Shown here piece after piece: positions 42,203 through 52,220 of a stretch of DNA of 64,000 bases (position 1 is its first letter; the number at the start of each line of letters is the position of its first letter). The notes below the pieces were generated by a model. The model had not been told where the DNA came from. It was given only the letters and a program-made list of their open reading frames with translations, and did not search any database. The stretch spans positions 62,001 through 126,000 of the forward strand of contig CANQNW010000005.1 in NCBI GenBank assembly GCA_947625305.1, written 5' to 3'. The translations under genes and the position numbers were made by a program. This DNA is from Candidatus Gastranaerophilales bacterium (lineage in GTDB: Bacteria; Cyanobacteriota; Vampirovibrionia; Gastranaerophilales; Gastranaerophilaceae).

Positions 42203-45200
42203 TTATACCGCTGTTAATTTACTGTCTCTGTATTTATCAATGCTGTCATATGTTAAATCAGGATTTTTCATATAATACTGCAATGCTTCAAGATATGCTT
42301 TTGCCGTATCCAAAACCGTAAAGCACGGGGTTGAATACATCTCGGCAATAGTTCTTATTAAAAAGCCTCTGTCCTCGGAACCGTAACGAACCGAGTTATT
42401 ATTTGTCGTCGGAGTATTTATAATAAAGCATAAATCCTTATTTTTCATATTTCTCTGCATTTTTTGAATATCAAATTTTTCAATTTCCTTTGACTCAATA
42501 TTATGAAGTTTTAAGTATTTATGAGTTCCCGTTGTTGCAACCAACTTATACCCGAGGTCAACAAGAGTTTGAGCGACCTCAACGGAATCTTTTTTATAGT
42601 GGTCGTTTATTGATATAAGCACGTTGCCTCTTTCCGTTGAAAGCTTATAGCCTGCCGCCAAAAATCCTTTTGCAAGCGCTCTTTCATAAGATGTATCAAT
42701 ACCTAAAACCTCGCCTGTTGATTTCATTTCGGGAGCTAAAGCAGGATCAATTCTGTTTAACTTCTGGAATGAGAATATCGGCACTTTTGCACATACAAGA
42801 TTTGTTGTTTCAAGCAAGCCCGTTTTATAGCCTTGTTCGGGTATTGATTTGCCTAAAATAGCATCTATCGCTATTTTAACCATCGGAGTTCCCGTAACTT
42901 TGCTTAAAATAGGTACTGTTCTTGATGCACGAGGGTTAACTTCAATTATATATGCTATGTTATCCTTTAATACAAATTGAATATTCATCAATCCTTTTAC
43001 TTTTAAGGCTTTTGCAATTTTTTCCGTGTATGTTACAAGATTTTTTATAATTTCCTTAGGAATTGTTCTTGTAGGATAAAGCGCAATGGAATCGCCCGAA
43101 TGAATACCTGCCCTTTCAATATGTTCCGTAATTGCAGGAATTAAAACATTTTCCCCGTCCGCAATAGCATCAAGTTCAAGTTCCGTTCCTTCTATATACT
43201 GGTCAATTAGGATAGGATGTTCATCCGAAAACTTTAATGCACCTTCAATGTATGAAATAAGTTCATCTTTATTATAAACAACCTGCATACCTCTTCCGCC
43301 GATTACATAAGAAGGTCTAACCAACAGCGGATAACCGAGTTCACGGGCAACTTCAAGTGCTTCAGATTGTTTTCTTATTGCAAAACCTTTTGGCTGAGGG
43401 ATTTTTAAGTCTCTTAAAAGCTGTTCAAAAAGTTTTCTGTCTTCTGCAATGTTTATTGATTCTAAAGATGTTCCGAGTATTTTAACTCCTCTTTCATATA
43501 ACTTTGGCGCCAAATTAATAGCCGTTTGACCGCCAAATTGCACCATTACACCTTCAGGATTTTCTTTTTCAATTATATTCATTATATTTTCAATGTGCAT
43601 AGGTTCAAAATAAAGCTTATCCGCCACGTCAAAATCGGTTGAAAGAGTTTCGGGATTTGAATTTACAATTAAAGATTTATAATTGTTATTTCTTACTTCC
43701 CAGGCAGCATGTACGGAACAATAGTCAAACTCAATACCCTGACCTATTCTGATAGGGCCCGAGCCTAAAATAAGAATTTTCTTATCTTTGTTATTTGAAT
43801 CACTCTCGTCAATTTCATTGTATGTAGAATAATAATAAGGTGTATAAGCCTTAAATTCCGCTGCACAGGTATCTACTATTTTAAATGAAGCGCTTATTGA
43901 GTTTTCTTTTCTTATTTTTTCAATATCATTCAAGGATTTTTTTGTATATTTTGCTATTTCTTCATCAAGAAATCCTTTTTCTTTTGCCTCAAGATAAAGC
44001 CCCGGGGTCAGTGTTTCATTTTTCAATTTGTTTTCAAAATCAACTAAAGATTTAATCTTATAGATAAACCATTTATCGATTTTAGTAATTTTATTAATCT
44101 CGCTTACTGAAATACCACGGTTTATTGCCTCAGCAACCCTGAATATTCTTCTGTCATCCTGAACATGCAATAAAGCTTTTAATTCTTCTTCACTGCATTC
44201 AATGTGTCTGCCTCTGAGCAATCCTGTATATTTTGATTCTATTGATGTTACGGCTTTTTTAAATGAACTTTCAAAAGTTCTGCCTATAGCCATAACTTCG
44301 CCGGTTGCTTTCATTTTAGTACCTAGAATTCTGTCGCCGTGTTTAAATTTATCAAACGGCCATTTCGGGATTTTTGTAACAACATAATCAATTGCAGGTT
44401 CAAATGCCGCAACGGTTTTCTTTGTAATAGAATTTGGTATTTCGTGAAGGTTGTACCCTATAGCAATTTTAGTTGTTATTTTTGCAATAGGATAGCCTGT
44501 TGCCTTAGAGGCAAGTGCCGATGAACGGCTTACTCTGGGGTTTACCTCAATTACATAGTATTGATTGCTTACTGTATCTAATGCAAACTGAACATTACAT
44601 CCGCCTTCTATTTTTAATGCTCTTATAATTTTTAATGCGGCACTTCTTAACATCTGGCACTCTTTATTTGTAAGAGTTTGAGTAGGTGCAACAACAAAGC
44701 TGTCACCCGTATGTATCCCGATTGGGTCTATATTTTCCATATTACAAATGGCTATACTTGTATTATTTGCATCACGGATTACTTCATATTCGATTTCTTT
44801 ATAGCCTGCAATACTTTTTTCAACAAGTACCTGAGAGATAGGGCTTAAAGATAGCCCAGTATAAACTATATCTTCATATTCACCGTAATTGTTCGCAATA
44901 CCGCCGCCTGTTCCGCCAAGTGTATAAGCGGGCCTTACTATAATAGGAAATCCGATTTTTTGAGCGAATTTTTTGGCATCTTCATAGCTTGATACAATAT
45001 CGCTTTCGGGAATAGGCTCTCCTATTTCTATCATTAAATTTTTAAACATTTCTCTATCTTCAGCTTTTTTTATGGAATCAATTTTTGTACCTAAAAGCTG
45101 AACGTTATACTTTTCCAGTACACCTGTTTCATGCAGTTTAACAGCCATATTAAGCCCTGTTTGTCCGCCTAATGTGGCGATTATCCCGTTAGGTCGTTCC

Positions 45201-45439
45201 TTATCAATAATGTATGTGAGCGCCTCCAGAGTTAAAGGCTCTATATATACTTTATCCGCAATATTTTCATCTGTCATGATAGTTGCGGGGTTAGAGTTTA
45301 CAAGAACAACTTCAATATTTTCTTCTTTTAATGCCCTGCATGCCTGCACACCAGCATAATCAAATTCAGCCGCCTGACCTATAACAATAGGGCCTGAGCC
45401 TATGACAAGTACCTTTTTTATATCTTTATTAATCGGCAT
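42203..45439 (-). CDS. carB: Carbamoyl-phosphate synthase large subunit
   Basis: The 1078-aa subunit makes carbamoyl phosphate from bicarbonate, ammonia and two ATP. Two ATP-grasp halves are clear: [21 protein letters not shown] with [10 protein letters not shown] in the first, [21 protein letters not shown] with [10 protein letters not shown] in the second. [20 protein letters not shown] and [19 protein letters not shown] are the metal/ATP sites. The C-terminal MGS-like domain, usually the site of UMP/ornithine control, is present. Length is normal. It lies 11 nt after the pyrF-carA fusion, its glutaminase partner. Confidence 0.97.
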   Translation of the reverse strand: [1078 protein letters not shown]

Positions 45440-45450
45440 AATTCTTTCCT

Positions 45451-47286
45451 TTATACTGTAACTTTTTTACTGTTTTCAACTTCTTCAATCCATTTTATGA
45501 TAACTTTATTTGCATCATAAGGCCCTGCTGTTAATTCAGGGTGGAATTGAACGGTTTTTATTTTATACTCATCGCAGCAAATCCCTTCAACCGTGTTATC
45601 GTTAAGGTTTATGTATGTAACCTTTGTATTCTCGGGGAGTGTTGAGTCATCAACCGCATAGCTGTGATTTTGAGAGGTAATAAATATTTCATTTGTTTCC
45701 AAGTTCATAACGGGGTGATTACCGCCTCTATGCCCGTATTTAAGTTTATATGTTTTTGCTCCGAGAGCGATTGATAATATTTGATGTCCTAAACAGATAC
45801 CGAATATTCTGATTTTACCGAGCAGTGCCTTTGCTGTTTCTATTGCCTGATGAGCATCCTCAGGATTTCCCGGGCCGTTTGAAATTAATACCGCATCAAA
45901 ATTACCTTCTAAAATTTCATCCGCTTTAACATCTGCCGGGAATACCGTAATATCACAGTTAAGTGATTTAAAGTTTTCAAGAATACTCTTTTTAATACCC
46001 ATATCAATTATTGCAAGTTTTATACCGTTTCCTGAAAATTTTTCAATTTTATAAGTTGATACATCAAGAGTAATATCTTTACTTATGCGGTATTCACGCA
46101 TTTTTTGCTTAATTTCTGGAGTAATATCGCCTGTTGTAATAGCACAGTTCATAGCCCCGTAATTTCTTATTATTTGGGTTAAGTGTCTTGTATCAATTCC
46201 CTTTAGAGCAACAATATTATTTTGTTTTAAGTATTCATCCAGCGGAGTACAGCTTTTATAGTGAGATTCATGCTCGCAAAGATTTTTTACGATAAACCCT
46301 TTAGCATGGATTTTTCCGCTTTCAAAATCATCTCTGTTTATTCCGTAGTTGCCTATTTCAGGGTATGTCATAACAATGGTCTGCCCTGCATAAGATGGAT
46401 CCGTTAAAATTTCCTGATAACCGACCATTGATGTATTAAATACAATCTCGCCGTATGAAGTCCCGTCACAGCCTATAGATTCACCTTCAAATATCATACC
46501 GTTTTCAAGAATTAATTTTCCTTTTGAAAGTGCATAAGATTTGTTTTGAGTTAAAAGTGCATTTTCAATTTCTTCATAAATCATTTTTATGGCTTTAACT
46601 CTATCTTCTGCAGAAGTAACGGCTCTGCCTATAACCAAGTAGTCAGCGCCTTCTTTTATTGCGATAGATGGAGTTGCCAATCTTTTTTGGTCGTTTTTAT
46701 TAGACCAATCGGGACGAATGCCGGGGCATAATACTTTAAAATCTTTTCCGCAGGCTTGTTTTATCTTTTTAGCCTCCCAAACACTTGCAACTACTCCATC
46801 CAATCCCGCCTTTTTTGCCATAATCGCAAGGTGCATTGCATAATCGTTTGGTTTATAAGGAACTTTAAGTTCATTCTGCAGACTTTCTTCTGATATACTT
46901 GTTAAAACAGTAACTCCCAGAATAACAGGCTTTTCTCTGCCAAGCTCTTCGGCAGTCAAGCGGGCTGTTTCCGCCGTCAGTTTCATCATTTCTTCTCCGC
47001 CCGTTGTATGAAGATTAAAGAATGATGCTCCGTTTCTTACTATATTTGCCGCTGCTTTTGCTACGGTATTTGGGATATCATGAAGTTTAACATCAAAAAA
47101 GAACTTTATATTCTGCTCTTTCATAAAATTAAATATCTCATATCCGTTGCCCGTATACATTTGCAAGCCGACTTTAAACACTCCGACATAATCTTTTAGT
47201 TCGGTTATAAGTTCTTTTGCCTGCTCAACCGTATCTACATCGAGCGCCAGAACTATTTTTTCTTTAATTTCCGGTTTTATTTCCAT
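45451..47286 (-). CDS. pyrF-carA: Fusion of OMP decarboxylase (PyrF) and carbamoyl-phosphate synthase small subunit (CarA)
   Basis: One 611-aa chain. Residues 1-240 are orotidine-5'-phosphate decarboxylase: IVLALDVDTVEQA, the catalytic FFDVKLHDIP (65-70) and CPGIRPDW; residues 213-222 (GADYLVIGRA) bind phosphate. Residues 253-600 are CarA: LENGMIFEGESIG, GYQEILTDPSYAGQ, the glutaminase nucleophile in GICLGHQIL (Cys498), and FHPELTAGP with His582 and Glu584. The linker is short (about 243-252). The enzyme thus joins the last and first steps of UMP synthesis. Its frame is continuous through the join with no internal start signal that I see. Confidence 0.95.
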   Translation of the reverse strand: MEIKPEIKEKIVLALDVDTVEQAKELITELKDYVGVFKVGLQMYTGNGYEIFNFMKEQNIKFFFDVKLHDIPNTVAKAAANIVRNGASFFNLHTTGGEEMMKLTAETARLTAEELGREKPVILGVTVLTSISEESLQNELKVPYKPNDYAMHLAIMAKKAGLDGVVASVWEAKKIKQACGKDFKVLCPGIRPDWSNKNDQKRLATPSIAIKEGADYLVIGRAVTSAEDRVKAIKMIYEEIENALLTQNKSYALSKGKLILENGMIFEGESIGCDGTSYGEIVFNTSMVGYQEILTDPSYAGQTIVMTYPEIGNYGINRDDFESGKIHAKGFIVKNLCEHESHYKSCTPLDEYLKQNNIVALKGIDTRHLTQIIRNYGAMNCAITTGDITPEIKQKMREYRISKDITLDVSTYKIEKFSGNGIKLAIIDMGIKKSILENFKSLNCDITVFPADVKADEILEGNFDAVLISNGPGNPEDAHQAIETAKALLGKIRIFGICLGHQILSIALGAKTYKLKYGHRGGNHPVMNLETNEIFITSQNHSYAVDDSTLPENTKVTYINLNDNTVEGICCDEYKIKTVQFHPELTAGPYDANKVIIKWIEEVENSKKVTV

Positions 47287-47290
47287 TGTT

Positions 47291-48562
47291 CTATCCTATA
47301 TTATATATTTTACCTTTTATAATTGTAATTTTAGGCCTGCCTTTGAGTTTTACTCCATCAAAAGGCGAAATCCTGCACTTTGATTTAAATTTAGATGCAT
47401 TAACAATCCATTCTTCATTCAAGTCAATAACTGTTAAATTAGCCTCATTATTTATTTCAATATTACCTTGATTTTTAAGGTTTAAGATATCAGAGGGTGC
47501 TATAGTAAACTTTCTTATAAGTTCCATTAACGGAAGTTTTCCCGTATGTACAAGGTTTGTAAGTGCAAGAGCAAGTGCAGTTTCAAATCCTGCAATACCC
47601 ATTGGTGCATTTTGGATTGGAAGCAACTTTTCATGTACCGTATGAGGTGCGTGGTCTGTTGCTATACAATCAATAGTTCCGTCTTGAAGCCCTTCTGTTA
47701 CCGCAATTAAATCTTCTTTTGTTCTTAACGGCGGATTTACCTTATATTTTGCATCATAGTCAATAATATCATCTTCCGTTAATGAAAAGTAATGCGGTGC
47801 TGTTTCTGCTGTTACTTTTAAACCGTCTTTTTTAGCCTGCCTTATTAATTCAACTGACCGTTTTGTTGAAATATGAGCAAAGTGATACCGCCCGTTAACG
47901 GCTCTTACCACTTCCAACTCTCTTGCAACAGCTAAGGATTCTGTTATGGAAGGTATTCCTTTTAATCCTAATCTTGCGGATACTTTGCCTTCATTAATAA
48001 CTCCGCCGTTTGCAAGCGATGAATCCTCGGAATGCGAACTAATTATTGAATTATGTGAATTTATATATTTAAGAGCTTCCTTTAATAAATGCATATTTTC
48101 AACGGGTTTTCCGTCATTAGAAAACGCAATTGCCCCGTTATCAAGAAGCTCCGATACATTAACAATTTTTTCCTCCGTTAAACCTTTAGTAACGGCGCAT
48201 ATCGGATAAAATCCGATGTCTGATACTTCTTTTGCTCTGTTAATTATGTATGTTAATGTTGTTAAATTATCAACAAACGGATTTGTATTTGCCATAGGGC
48301 ATATTGCGGTATACCCGCCTTCTATTGCGGATAAAATACCTGTTTTAATTGTTTCTTTTGCGGTAAACCCCGGTTCTCTTAAGTGGCAGTGCATATCTAT
48401 AAGCCCCGGAGTAATAATTTTGCCTGTCAGGTCAATAACTTCATCATCTTTAACGGTTAAATCAACTCCGATTTCTTTTATAATCCCGTTTTCAATTCTT
48501 ATATCGGATATTTTATCAAAATTTGTTTTTGGATTTATTATTCTTGCATTCTTTAGAAGCAT
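47291..48562 (-). CDS. pyrC: Dihydroorotase
   Basis: A 423-aa amidohydrolase that closes carbamoyl-aspartate to dihydroorotate. LIDMHCHLREPGFTAKETI carries the metal HxH, later FAHISTKRSVELIR supplies a His and IATDHAPHTVHEK the catalytic Asp and His. It is a class I (long) dihydroorotase. It follows pyrB directly and precedes pyrF-carA by 4 nt. Confidence 0.96.
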   Translation of the reverse strand: MLLKNARIINPKTNFDKISDIRIENGIIKEIGVDLTVKDDEVIDLTGKIITPGLIDMHCHLREPGFTAKETIKTGILSAIEGGYTAICPMANTNPFVDNLTTLTYIINRAKEVSDIGFYPICAVTKGLTEEKIVNVSELLDNGAIAFSNDGKPVENMHLLKEALKYINSHNSIISSHSEDSSLANGGVINEGKVSARLGLKGIPSITESLAVARELEVVRAVNGRYHFAHISTKRSVELIRQAKKDGLKVTAETAPHYFSLTEDDIIDYDAKYKVNPPLRTKEDLIAVTEGLQDGTIDCIATDHAPHTVHEKLLPIQNAPMGIAGFETALALALTNLVHTGKLPLMELIRKFTIAPSDILNLKNQGNIEINNEANLTVIDLNEEWIVNASKFKSKCRISPFDGVKLKGRPKITIIKGKIYNIG

Positions 48563-49477
48563 TTATACCTCTTTTCCTTGTTTTAATAAGGTATTTAATA
48601 TTGCCATACGCACATATACTCCGTTTTGAGCCTGTTCAAGAATTGTTTTGCCTACCCTGTTATCAAGAAGTTCGGATGATACTTCAATATTACGGTTAGC
48701 AGGCCCCGGGTGCATTAATATAACATCGTTTGAGGCATACTTCTTTAATAAATCCGTATCTATCTCATAAAGTCTTTTATATTCTAAAGAATCAGGATAT
48801 CCTTCTTTTTCGTGTCTTTCATTTTGAACCCTTAGCACCATAACGACATTTGCACCGGCTATAGCCTCTTTAACATCCTTATGATATTTGACATTAAACG
48901 CATCAAAACTTTCAAACTCCAAATAGGAAGGAGCGCACAGGTGAATATCGGCATTGAATTTTGATAAAAGATTTATGTTTGATTTAGCAACTCTGCTGTG
49001 CGAAACATCCCCTATTATTACAATCTTTTTATTTTCAACCGTTCCGATTTTTTCAAGCATTGTATAAAAATCCAACAAAGCCTGCGAAGGATGTGCGTGT
49101 GTACCGTCACCTCCATTGACAAATTTTATAGGATATTTTACAAGCCTCATTACATTATTGATTATTCCCGAGAGCGAATGCCTGATTACAACCGCATTAA
49201 CTCCGAGAAAATAAAGGTTTTCAATGGTATCTTTTAAACTCTCGCCCTTTGATAGTGACGAATGCGACAAATCAAAATTTATTATATTCATTCCCAGTTT
49301 CTGGCCTGCGATTTCAAAACTGCATCTTGTTCTGGTTGAGTTTTCATAGAACATTAAAGCAAGTGTCTTTTTCTCAACATCGGAATTTTTCCTGCCTGAT
49401 TTAAATTCTTTTGCAAGATTTACGATATTTAAAATATCTTCTTTTGAAATATTTTTAATATCAATTAAATGTTCCAT
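48563..49477 (-). CDS. pyrB: Aspartate carbamoyltransferase catalytic subunit
   Basis: The 304-aa enzyme condenses carbamoyl phosphate with aspartate. YENSTRTRCSFEIAGQKLG holds the carbamoyl-phosphate site (STRTR), VNGGDGTHAHPSQALLD the HPxQ motif, and HPGPANRN the third. Start ATG 49477 is chosen because it overlaps the pyrE stop (TAATG) and has AAGG about 10 nt upstream; a longer frame to 49537 has no support. No PyrI regulatory subunit is present in the window. Confidence 0.96.
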   Translation of the reverse strand: MEHLIDIKNISKEDILNIVNLAKEFKSGRKNSDVEKKTLALMFYENSTRTRCSFEIAGQKLGMNIINFDLSHSSLSKGESLKDTIENLYFLGVNAVVIRHSLSGIINNVMRLVKYPIKFVNGGDGTHAHPSQALLDFYTMLEKIGTVENKKIVIIGDVSHSRVAKSNINLLSKFNADIHLCAPSYLEFESFDAFNVKYHKDVKEAIAGANVVMVLRVQNERHEKEGYPDSLEYKRLYEIDTDLLKKYASNDVILMHPGPANRNIEVSSELLDNRVGKTILEQAQNGVYVRMAILNTLLKQGKEV

Positions 49478-50052
49478 TATGCTTTTACCTTTTCTTCCCT
49501 GCTCCCGGGTTTTACAAGCGGTATTCCTTCTTTGCACAGCGGGCAGTTTTCAGGCTCATATACAACAGGATCAATCTGCATTAAGGATTTAATGTTATAT
49601 TCCGTTTTACCTTTTGTCCTATCTACAATACAGCCTACCGCAACAACTTCAGGCTCATATTCTTTTATTGCTTCCATTGTTTCTTTAATTGTTCTTGCAG
49701 TTGTAATAACATCTTCAATAATAACAACTCTTTCACCTTTTTTAAGAGTATAACCTCTTCTTAACTGCATTACCCCGTCTTTTCTTTCCACAAAAAGATT
49801 TCTCTTTTTGGCATTTTTTGCTGTTTCATAACCGATTATAACAGCCCCGATAGCGGGTGCTACGATTGTATCAAATTCAATACCCGATAACTTTTCAGCG
49901 AGCATTTTCCCTAATTTTTCAGTAATTTCAGGGTATTGATATAATTTTGCACATTGAAAATATATATCGGAATGTAAGCCCGAGGTTAAGCAAAAGTGCC
50001 CATGCAGTACACCTTCTGCCTGTTCTAATAAATTTAATACTTCATTTCCCAT
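49477..50052 (-). CDS. pyrE: Orotate phosphoribosyltransferase
   Basis: A 191-aa enzyme that adds PRPP to orotate. ERVVIIEDVITTARTIKETM is the PRPP-binding motif, and FVERKDGVMQLRRGYTLKKG the loop with catalytic Lys/Arg. The C-terminus has CPLC, as in the longer, cyanobacteria/archaea-like forms. It is coupled to pyrB by overlap. Confidence 0.95.
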   Translation of the reverse strand: MGNEVLNLLEQAEGVLHGHFCLTSGLHSDIYFQCAKLYQYPEITEKLGKMLAEKLSGIEFDTIVAPAIGAVIIGYETAKNAKKRNLFVERKDGVMQLRRGYTLKKGERVVIIEDVITTARTIKETMEAIKEYEPEVVAVGCIVDRTKGKTEYNIKSLMQIDPVVYEPENCPLCKEGIPLVKPGSREEKVKA

Positions 50053-50054
50053 TA

Positions 50055-50981
50055 TTATTCCCTCAATTTTCTTTTTAATTCATCTAAATTTTTAAAATTA
50101 TTTTTTGTAATATATTCATTCAGTTCAAATACTAACCGTTGTGCCGTATCGGGATGAGTAAAGTTCGCTGTCCCTATTTGAACTGCATCAGCACCCGCTG
50201 CCATAAATTCCAATACATCTTCAAGTGTTTCAATTCCGCCTATTCCTATTACGGGAATATCAACGGTTTTGGCAATACGCATGACAGCACCTACCGCAAC
50301 TGGTTTGACACCCACACCTGAGTAACCGCCCGAAATTATACTCTTTCTTATTTCTCCATTTATACAGCTTATTTTTATTTGAGTACCCTTTAATGTATTA
50401 ATTGCACTTATTGCATCCGCTCCCGCTTTTTGCGCACTTAGTGCTAATTTTTCTATTGAAGTAACATTCGGAGTTAATTTTACGGTTATAAATCCTTGAT
50501 ATTCCTGCCTTACTGAGTTTACAAGTTCATATAAAGAATTTTCATCTACTCCGAATTCTATACAGCCTGATTTAACATTCGGGCATGAAACATTCAGTTC
50601 AACGGCTTTTATTTTATTATTTTCGCAGATTTTAGCCAGAGCAATATATTCATCTAAACTTGAACCTGCTATATTCATTAAAAATTCAATATTTTTAGAT
50701 TTTAAAACAGGCAGTTTTTCCTCTAAAAACTTGTCTATTCCGACATTTTCAAGCCCGATAGAATTTATCATACCTGCTTTTGTTTCGGTAATACGAATAT
50801 TTTTATTACCCTGACGGGGATTAAGTGAGATTGCTTTTGTAACTATCGCCCCAAGATTAGATACATCAATAAATTCATCGTATTCATCATTATAGCCGTA
50901 TGTACCTGAAGCAGTCATAATAAGGTTTTTAAGTATTAATCCTTTAAGGTCTGTTTGAAGTATATTTGTCATTACTGCCAT
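50055..50981 (-). CDS. pyrD: Dihydroorotate dehydrogenase, class 1B catalytic subunit
   Basis: The 308-aa FMN barrel oxidises dihydroorotate to orotate. LNVSCPNVKSGCIEFG contains the catalytic Cys region, followed by FITVKLTPNVTSIEKLA, and IPVIGIGGIETLEDVLEFMAAGADAVQIGTA (about residues 238-268) binds the FMN phosphate. With PyrK it forms the NAD-dependent class 1B enzyme. The start may be ATG 50981 or ATG 50972; the latter would make a TAATG overlap with pyrK like other joints in this operon. Confidence 0.95.
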   Translation of the reverse strand: MAVMTNILQTDLKGLILKNLIMTASGTYGYNDEYDEFIDVSNLGAIVTKAISLNPRQGNKNIRITETKAGMINSIGLENVGIDKFLEEKLPVLKSKNIEFLMNIAGSSLDEYIALAKICENNKIKAVELNVSCPNVKSGCIEFGVDENSLYELVNSVRQEYQGFITVKLTPNVTSIEKLALSAQKAGADAISAINTLKGTQIKISCINGEIRKSIISGGYSGVGVKPVAVGAVMRIAKTVDIPVIGIGGIETLEDVLEFMAAGADAVQIGTANFTHPDTAQRLVFELNEYITKNNFKNLDELKRKLRE

Positions 50982-51733
50982 ACGACCTCACTTCCCGAAA
51001 AAACGGGGCCGTCTTTGCAAACCGAGGCATTAATTATTTTTCCGTCTTTCTTAATATCAATTACACAGCCTCTGCAAACCCCGATACCGCAGGCCATAAC
51101 TTTTTCCATTGCTACTTGAGTTTCAATTTCGTAGTTTCGAGCTATTTCATAAGTTGTTTTTAATACTATTTCAGGCCCGCAGACATATATAATTTCTGGG
51201 TTGAATTGATTTATTAAAACTCCGAGATAATTAAGCACACTGCCCATTTCCCCGTATGAACCGTCATCCGTATATATTTTATCTATTTGCATGCCTTTTG
51301 GTATTTCATTTTTATTTAAAAATCCGCAGGCAAACAGATTTTCAATTCCTTTTTTATCAAGTTCGGATTTTAAAAATGATATCGGAGCAGAGCCAATTCC
51401 TGCACCGATAAGCAATGATTTTTTATTTTTTATATCAAATCCGTTCCCTAAAGGCCCTGTTATATCAATAATATCGCCTGCTTTTAGCGATTTAATATAA
51501 TTAGTGCCTTTACCCCGTTCTTTAAATAAAACTCCGATTTTCCAGTTTTCATTTGAATAAACACTAAACGGTCTTCTGAAAGTCAAGCCTTCACAGTAAA
51601 TAGAGATAAACTGACCTGCTTTAACTTCTACATTTACTCCGCAGTCAATTTCTATGAAGTATGAGGAGGAGGATACTTTTTCTATCCTTGATACTTTTGC
51701 TTTATATATTTTTTTTGTTTTTTCTTGTAACAT
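50972..51733 (-). CDS. pyrK: Dihydroorotate dehydrogenase electron-transfer subunit
   Basis: A 253-aa flavoprotein passing electrons from PyrD to NAD. FRRPFSVYS binds FAD, LLIGAGIGSAPISFLKSEL the NAD, and CGIGVCRGCVIDIKKDGKI with a later Cys (SVCKDG) the [2Fe-2S] cluster. It is the first enzyme gene of the pyr operon. Its ATG lies only 2 nt after GAGAGG, an unusually short spacing, and the Shine-Dalgarno belongs to the edge of the 112-bp repeats. Confidence 0.95.
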   Translation of the reverse strand: MLQEKTKKIYKAKVSRIEKVSSSSYFIEIDCGVNVEVKAGQFISIYCEGLTFRRPFSVYSNENWKIGVLFKERGKGTNYIKSLKAGDIIDITGPLGNGFDIKNKKSLLIGAGIGSAPISFLKSELDKKGIENLFACGFLNKNEIPKGMQIDKIYTDDGSYGEMGSVLNYLGVLINQFNPEIIYVCGPEIVLKTTYEIARNYEIETQVAMEKVMACGIGVCRGCVIDIKKDGKIINASVCKDGPVFSGSEVVWQ

Positions 51734-51738
51734 ATCCT

Positions 51739-52094
51739 CTCGATTTCACCCTACGCACCGTCTTAAATTTTGCTCCATTCGGGCTTTTCATTCGCTTCGC
51801 TGCCGCTGTCGCTCATTTCGCCCTCTTTACTTCGGGTTCACTCGCTATCGCTCGATTTCACCCTACGCATCGTCTTAAATTTTGCTCCATTCGGGCTTTT
51901 CATTCGCTTCGCTGCCGCTGTCGCTCATTTCGCCCTCTTTACTTCGGGTTCACTCGCTATCGCTCGATTTCACCCTACGCACTGTCTTAAATTTTGCTCC
52001 ATTCGGGCTTCTCATTCGCTTCGCTATCGCTGTCGCTCATTTCGCCCTCTTTACTTCGGGTTCACTCGCTATCGCTCGATTTCACCCTACGCAA
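51739..52094. repeat. Three tandem 112-bp direct repeats in the pyr leader
   Basis: Units start at 51739, 51851 and 51963, with a partial fourth start at 52075. They are nearly identical, rich in TTCGCT/CGCTC motifs and clearly less AT-rich than their surroundings. Read on the minus strand (the direction of the pyr operon), each unit has AGAGGG, then ATG and a 17-codon ORF, MSDSGSEANEKPEWSKI, at 51763-51816, 51875-51928 and 51987-52040 (the last with Asp5). On the plus strand they give only frame-through ORFs without a gene signature. Confidence 0.9.
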
Positions 52095-52103
52095 AATTTA
52101 AAA

Positions 52104-52133
52104 AAAAAGAAAAACATTACTGCTTTTCTTTTT
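52104..52133 (-). terminator. AT-rich attenuator-like hairpin of the pyr leader
   Basis: AAAAAGAAAA pairs with TTTTCTTTTT over 10 bp around a 10-nt loop, followed on the minus strand by more Ts. It is weak because it is almost all A-T, but it lies 1 nt past the stop of the leader ORF, the usual site for an attenuator. Confidence 0.4.
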
Positions 52134-52134
52134 C

Positions 52135-52170
52135 TTATATATATTCAATTTTTATTATATAGTGTTTCAT
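52135..52170 (-). CDS. Leader peptide ORF of the pyr operon
   Basis: ATG at 52170 opens an 11-codon ORF, MKHYIIKIEYI, with AGGG 7 nt upstream and a stop next to the hairpin at 52133. It would begin about 15 nt after the predicted transcription start. Its codons are rich in U and A (UAU, AUA, AUU), which suits a UTP-sensitive pause as in the enteric pyrBI leader. No direct evidence of translation is available. Confidence 0.5.
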   Translation of the reverse strand: MKHYIIKIEYI

Positions 52171-52191
52171 GCTTTTTCCCTGCTTTTTAGT

Positions 52192-52220
52192 ATTATCCGA
52201 CCAAAAAAAATCAAAGTCAA
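52192..52220 (-). promoter_or_regulatory. Predicted pyr operon promoter
   Basis: On the minus strand TTGACT (52220-52215) and GATAAT (52197-52192) are 17 bp apart, each one base from consensus. The start point would be near 52185, giving a leader of about 450 nt before pyrK. Confidence 0.7.

Follow-up and report, generated by a model that had tools for sequence, protein, structure and literature searches.

The pyrimidine biosynthesis operon of a Candidatus Gastranaerophilales bacterium (host genome size 1.97 Mb) is headed by a short leader that is probably a regulator-free, coupled transcription-translation attenuator of the pyrBI/pyrE type, acting on the whole pyr operon and sensing UTP. The leader lies in a 64,000-nucleotide stretch of DNA (the window), and its arrangement looks like an on/off switch that would measure pyrimidine supply without a regulator protein. 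The named near relatives are also Candidatus Gastranaerophilales, and several of them come from animal guts. If this reading is true, regulator-free UTP attenuation extends beyond enteric bacteria to non-photosynthetic cyanobacterial relatives, in an order whose sampled genomes all lack PyrR, and coupled transcription and translation is implied in this group. Regulator-free pyr attenuation is already known as a kind, but no report of it was found in this lineage or phylum; likewise, a literature search that mostly did not cover subscription journals found no published description of this leader. As late as 2010, a survey that added a find of its own in Firmicutes named Proteobacteria and Actinobacteria as the only other groups with known leader-peptide systems (PMC2965389).

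Anatomy of the pyr leader

Read directly on the minus strand, the DNA upstream of pyrK contains a promoter, an AGGG, an 11-codon ORF, and then a hairpin with a T run (Table 1). This reading bears out the TTGACT-17-GATAAT promoter, the short ORF, and the well-spaced AGGG of a preliminary description. Transcription would start near 52185 and continue through an operon in the order pyrK-pyrD-pyrE-pyrB-pyrC-[pyrF-carA]-carB. The gene upstream of the leader (52347, plus strand) is divergent, so there is no other gene on the hairpin's strand that it could terminate. Within the operon, a single 611-aa frame encodes a fusion of OMP decarboxylase (PyrF), as the N-terminal part, with CarA, the small subunit of carbamoyl-phosphate synthase.

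Table 1. Features of the pyr leader and operon, with positions in the window
Feature	Position	Strand	Remarks
Promoter TTGACT-17 nt-GATAAT	52192..52220	-	TTGACT 52220-52215, GATAAT 52197-52192; read directly
Shine-Dalgarno AGGG	52178..52181	-	7 nt 5' of the leader ATG (52170)
Leader ORF, MKHYIIKIEYI*	52135..52170	-	11 codons, ATG..TAA
Terminator hairpin (putative)	52101..52136	-	Purine 5' arm 52136-52121, loop GTAA 52120-52117, pyrimidine 3' arm 52116-52101
U tract, nine T	52100..52108	-	Overlaps outer 3' arm; T runs also in relatives
112-bp tandem repeat, 3.2 copies	51739..52093	-	355 bp, 97% matches; between terminator and pyrK
pyrK, dihydroorotate dehydrogenase electron transfer subunit	50972..51733	-	First gene of the operon
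pyrD	50055..50981	-	
pyrE	49477..50052	-	
pyrB, aspartate carbamoyltransferase	48563..49537	-	
Probable pyrC, dihydroorotase	47291..48562	-	Name from sequence and position
pyrF-carA fusion	45451..47286	-	PyrF model, residues 7-242; CarA model, residues 257-604
carB	42203..45439	-	

The predicted fold of the hairpin has 16 pairs and an energy of -14.4 kcal/mol; GAAAAGC : GUUUUUC pairing flanks the loop, while at its base the stem overlaps the ORF stop codon. An earlier account of a weak, 10-bp A-T hairpin with extra Ts at the stop was correct as to the hairpin, the Ts, and the adjoining stop codon, yet the structure is longer and less weak than that account held. Together with its U tract, the hairpin has the form of an intrinsic terminator, at which transcription would be expected to end in the cell. 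Among relatives, compensatory changes convert A-U pairs to G-C at offsets 2, 3, and 4 and an A-U pair to U-A at offset 5. Pairs were counted from each sequence's own fold and then checked by arm swapping: the native arms average -13.2 kcal/mol versus -10.1 kcal/mol when 3' arms are exchanged between species (p 3e-6, although p-values are a guide only, as the rows are related by descent and not independent). RNAalifold returned no consensus pair on a MAFFT alignment, probably because the low-complexity arms were misaligned. A conserved hairpin within the ORF was also considered as a candidate and was rejected, as the fold varies between relatives.

Conservation and stop placement among relatives

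In total, 57 leaders were measured upstream of pyrK, representing 12 genera in 3 families; the same-genus sample comprises pyrK-upstream DNA from genomes with a long enough contig. Conservation of the ORF and hairpin in relatives, on which the preliminary description had staked its proposal, is found throughout this set. Promoter, ORF, hairpin, and U tract are present in all same-genus leaders compared. TTGAC-17-NATAAT occurs in all 31 readable leaders of the genus, an SD-like triplet in 29 (two of the 31 are without one), and the ORF begins about 21-22 nt past the -10 box, with two exceptions at 17 and 33 nt. The other measured leaders have an ORF of like length in the same place (mostly 9-15 codons), and the same order of parts is seen in all 57, including those from 8 further genera of the same family and from 3 genera of families f6 and f7. 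Three other families of the order (f2, f3, and f4) have pyrK and no such hairpin in the stretch read.

The position of the stop codon is conserved. In 51 of 57 leaders, the ORF ends 1-17 nt 5' of the stem's first G-C pair. Three leaders stop in the hairpin loop (G009, G030, and G037), and in three others the ORF reads through the hairpin (G017, G168, and G174; the leader in the window is not among them); such cases still fit occlusion of the hairpin by a ribosome, yet loosen the stop rule. That the hairpin is a plain partial terminator beside a chance ORF, serving only to lower basal transcription of the operon or to end stray transcripts, has in its favor that AT-rich DNA is full of short ORFs and that chance placement of the stop is expected in about one leader in six. 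This explanation is nevertheless very unlikely: taking genus averages, 10.5 of 12 genera have the stop at -14 to +6 nt relative to the first G-C pair, versus 2.1 expected from shuffled ORF regions, a comparison in which leader starts were set by distance to the -10 box in the home genus and picked by eye from sequence in the other genera, which favors the fit. The divergent neighbor, too, leaves no other same-strand gene for the hairpin to serve.

The encoded peptides are not conserved between genera. The consensus in the home genus is about MKHYLIKIEYI, and peptides of other genera are very unlike it (e.g., MNKKRIRIFKY, MKRTNLVYFHITTKF, and MSIKNKNIFIYT). Within the genus, the ORF has no codon-position pattern, synonymous change is barely above neutral (0.23 versus 0.18), and the leader peptides have no repeated codons of one amino acid. 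What is conserved between genera is the stop position and the hairpin. Retention of the start, Shine-Dalgarno sequence, and stop position around a peptide that is free to vary points to translation as such, rather than a peptide signal, as what matters. Because the peptide is without sign of selection, only the placement of start, Shine-Dalgarno sequence, and stop would indicate that the ORF is translated. One stretch of the ORF, the motif AAAAATTGAATAT (52138-52155), hardly varies within the genus and is partly present in g41, with no visible selection on the peptide; it is perhaps a polymerase pause site.

In 464 kb of the same genome, 28 U-tract hairpins precede a gene on their own strand, and this leader alone combines such a hairpin with an SD-led mini-ORF that ends at the stem. 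When the genome was searched with sequence model R1, no second copy was convincing; the next match (E 0.001) comes from the complementary strand of this hairpin, and further ones (E 0.005-0.4) have unrelated genes nearby as far as read. Ten genomes of the family that lack PyrK (E 1e-40) also lack PyrB when searched with the window's own protein as query, with no positive control inside the set; the leader therefore goes with the pathway. Many genera of the same family are without PyrK (genomes G064-G082; genera g18 and g20-g27), and family members lacking both PyrK and PyrB are probably pyrimidine auxotrophs.

Signal, mechanism, and comparison with known attenuators

Many of the pyr attenuators known from non-enteric bacteria depend on PyrR, which speaks for the idea that the terminator is controlled through binding of a protein or ligand to the leader RNA (PyrR-like or riboswitch) and that the ORF is incidental. 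This idea is highly improbable here. No PyrR scored above the curated cut-off in any of 58 relatives or in any of the 146 genomes that represent the order, in a search that was positive in Synechococcus, Bacillus, and others as controls. The one full-length, weak PyrR match in the host genome is hypoxanthine phosphoribosyltransferase-like, just below the HPRT family cut-off on the fragment scanned. In agreement with the preliminary description, which had seen no PyrR site, the leader has no Rfam match to a PyrR binding-site RNA at the gathering score, no PyrR family among its weak matches, and nothing credible in Rfam overall. The terminator is the sole conserved structure, no sequence motif is common to all genera, and only about 50 nt separate the transcription start from the hairpin.

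In the proposed attenuator of the pyrBI/pyrE type, a ribosome would load on the 11-codon ORF. When UTP is plentiful, a fast polymerase would reach the U tract before the ribosome, the arms would pair, and transcription would end at about 52100. When UTP (or UTP and CTP) is scarce, the polymerase would slow, partly over the AU-rich ORF but chiefly over the 3' arm and U tract; the ribosome at the stop codon would then cover the 5' arm, no hairpin would form, and the operon would be transcribed. A ribosome at the stop would cover the 5' arm, so this geometry fits the stop-hairpin distance rule of E. coli, in which a stop codon within several bp of the hairpin represses termination (PMC4824070). 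The distance between ribosome and polymerase governs the E. coli pyrBI attenuator, and in a designed system a stop a few bp from the hairpin suppresses termination, whereas a distance of more than about 27-30 nt releases it (PMC4824070, PMC5021804).

The two arms of the hairpin are of opposite composition. In the home genus, the U fraction is 0.02 in the 5' arm versus 0.84 in the 3' arm with its tail. In none of the 57 leaders does the pyrimidine fraction of the paired 3' arm fall below 0.84; the median is 0.92, compared to 0.64 in 76 gene-end terminators of the host genome (p 2e-7 on genus means), 11 of which reach 0.84. The U fraction of the 3' arm in the window (0.875) exceeds that of every background terminator (maximum 0.75). 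On these measurements, the idea of a "U-rich leader peptide" was replaced by that of a "pyrimidine-rich 3' arm". Part of this richness may reflect the A-arm/T-arm build that terminators generally have when a genome is AT-rich.

UTP is the simplest signal because the genes are those of the pyrimidine pathway and because, in the window, completion of the stem and tail needs 16 pyrimidines in 17 nt; UTP would accordingly be the nucleotide that the leader senses. A bolder reading, somewhat less likely than not, is that the terminator is its own pyrimidine meter: the 3' arm and tail are almost all U and C, completing the hairpin would need a burst of pyrimidine nucleotides, and the ORF of about 10 codons would be a timer only. 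If so, sensor and terminator are merged in about 35 nt. A coupled attenuator of the same anatomy could instead sense general translation capacity (initiation rate, ribosome supply, or energy supply) rather than UTP; the anatomy requires only a race between ribosome and polymerase, and the peptide has no telling codons. Such a sensor is rather unlikely, given that no locus other than the pyr operon has the design in the 464 kb compared, that the design follows this operon through 12 genera, and that its 3' arm is unusually pyrimidine-rich. With geometry kept and peptides diverged, the 12 genera offer a natural series for the effects of stop-hairpin distance and arm composition on the race.

By analogy, the leader would work like pyrBI/pyrE with a different layout. 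Like E. coli pyrBI (pyrL), it is regulator-free and has an SD-led leader ORF before pyrimidine genes. In pyrBI, a pyrimidine-rich run slows the polymerase. E. coli pyrL has 44 codons in the genome record, with the hairpin inside the ORF, a C-rich 5' arm, a G-rich 3' arm, and the U-rich CCGTTTTTCTTCCCGTT upstream of the stem. In contrast, the leaders described here mostly have 9-15 codons, a stop before the hairpin, a purine 5' arm, and a pyrimidine 3' arm, and the pyrimidine-rich stretch is in the 3' arm of the terminator rather than upstream of it. A ribosome close behind the polymerase blocks the intrinsic terminator of pyrBI (PMC5021804, PMC4824070). The attenuator reading first suggested for this leader is supported, with two refinements: the geometry is nearer to rph-pyrE, and most of the U-rich sequence belongs to the 3' arm rather than to the leader peptide.

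With its stop just 5' of the hairpin, the leader resembles E. coli rph-pyrE more than pyrBI, in which the leader ORF runs through the hairpin. At rph-pyrE, a stop codon shifted toward the attenuator is believed to increase the expression of pyrE (PMC2784333). The rph-pyrE frame is a full gene (rph), whereas here a dedicated mini-ORF precedes all genes of the operon. The PyrR-controlled attenuators of Bacillus and others share an intrinsic terminator before pyr genes, yet need PyrR, a binding loop, and an antiterminator, none of which was found here. Amino-acid leader-peptide attenuators (trp, his) share a short ORF, there translated, ahead of a terminator; unlike them, this leader has no single-codon run, and no antiterminator was found in it. 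The stop-hairpin distance of amino-acid attenuators is >20 bp (PMC4824070), far above that found here.

The repeat array downstream of the terminator

The array of 112-bp tandem repeats between the terminator and pyrK, absent from the preliminary description, stretches the untranslated leader to about 370 nt. The repeat unit is GC-richer and has inverted ends (TAAATTTTGC/GCAAAATTTA). Members of the repeat family are dispersed in 33 of 41 same-genus genomes (17 matches in one), and the genome described here has one site. In about ten species, the repeat sits precisely where the U tract of the attenuator ends. Other genomes (e.g., G023, G002, and G001) have no repeat, and the attenuator lies directly before pyrK. 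Because these array-free relatives keep the attenuator, the array is not part of the conserved switch, and its candidacy as the main feature of the region was rejected. The many repeat sites in sister species are often right after a T run or GCGG, and the 112-bp repeat may be a small mobile element. On the plus strand, three overlapping ORFs of 102-130 aa span the array (51661-52190); they look like by-products of a repeat with few stop codons, and an annotation could mistake them for genes.
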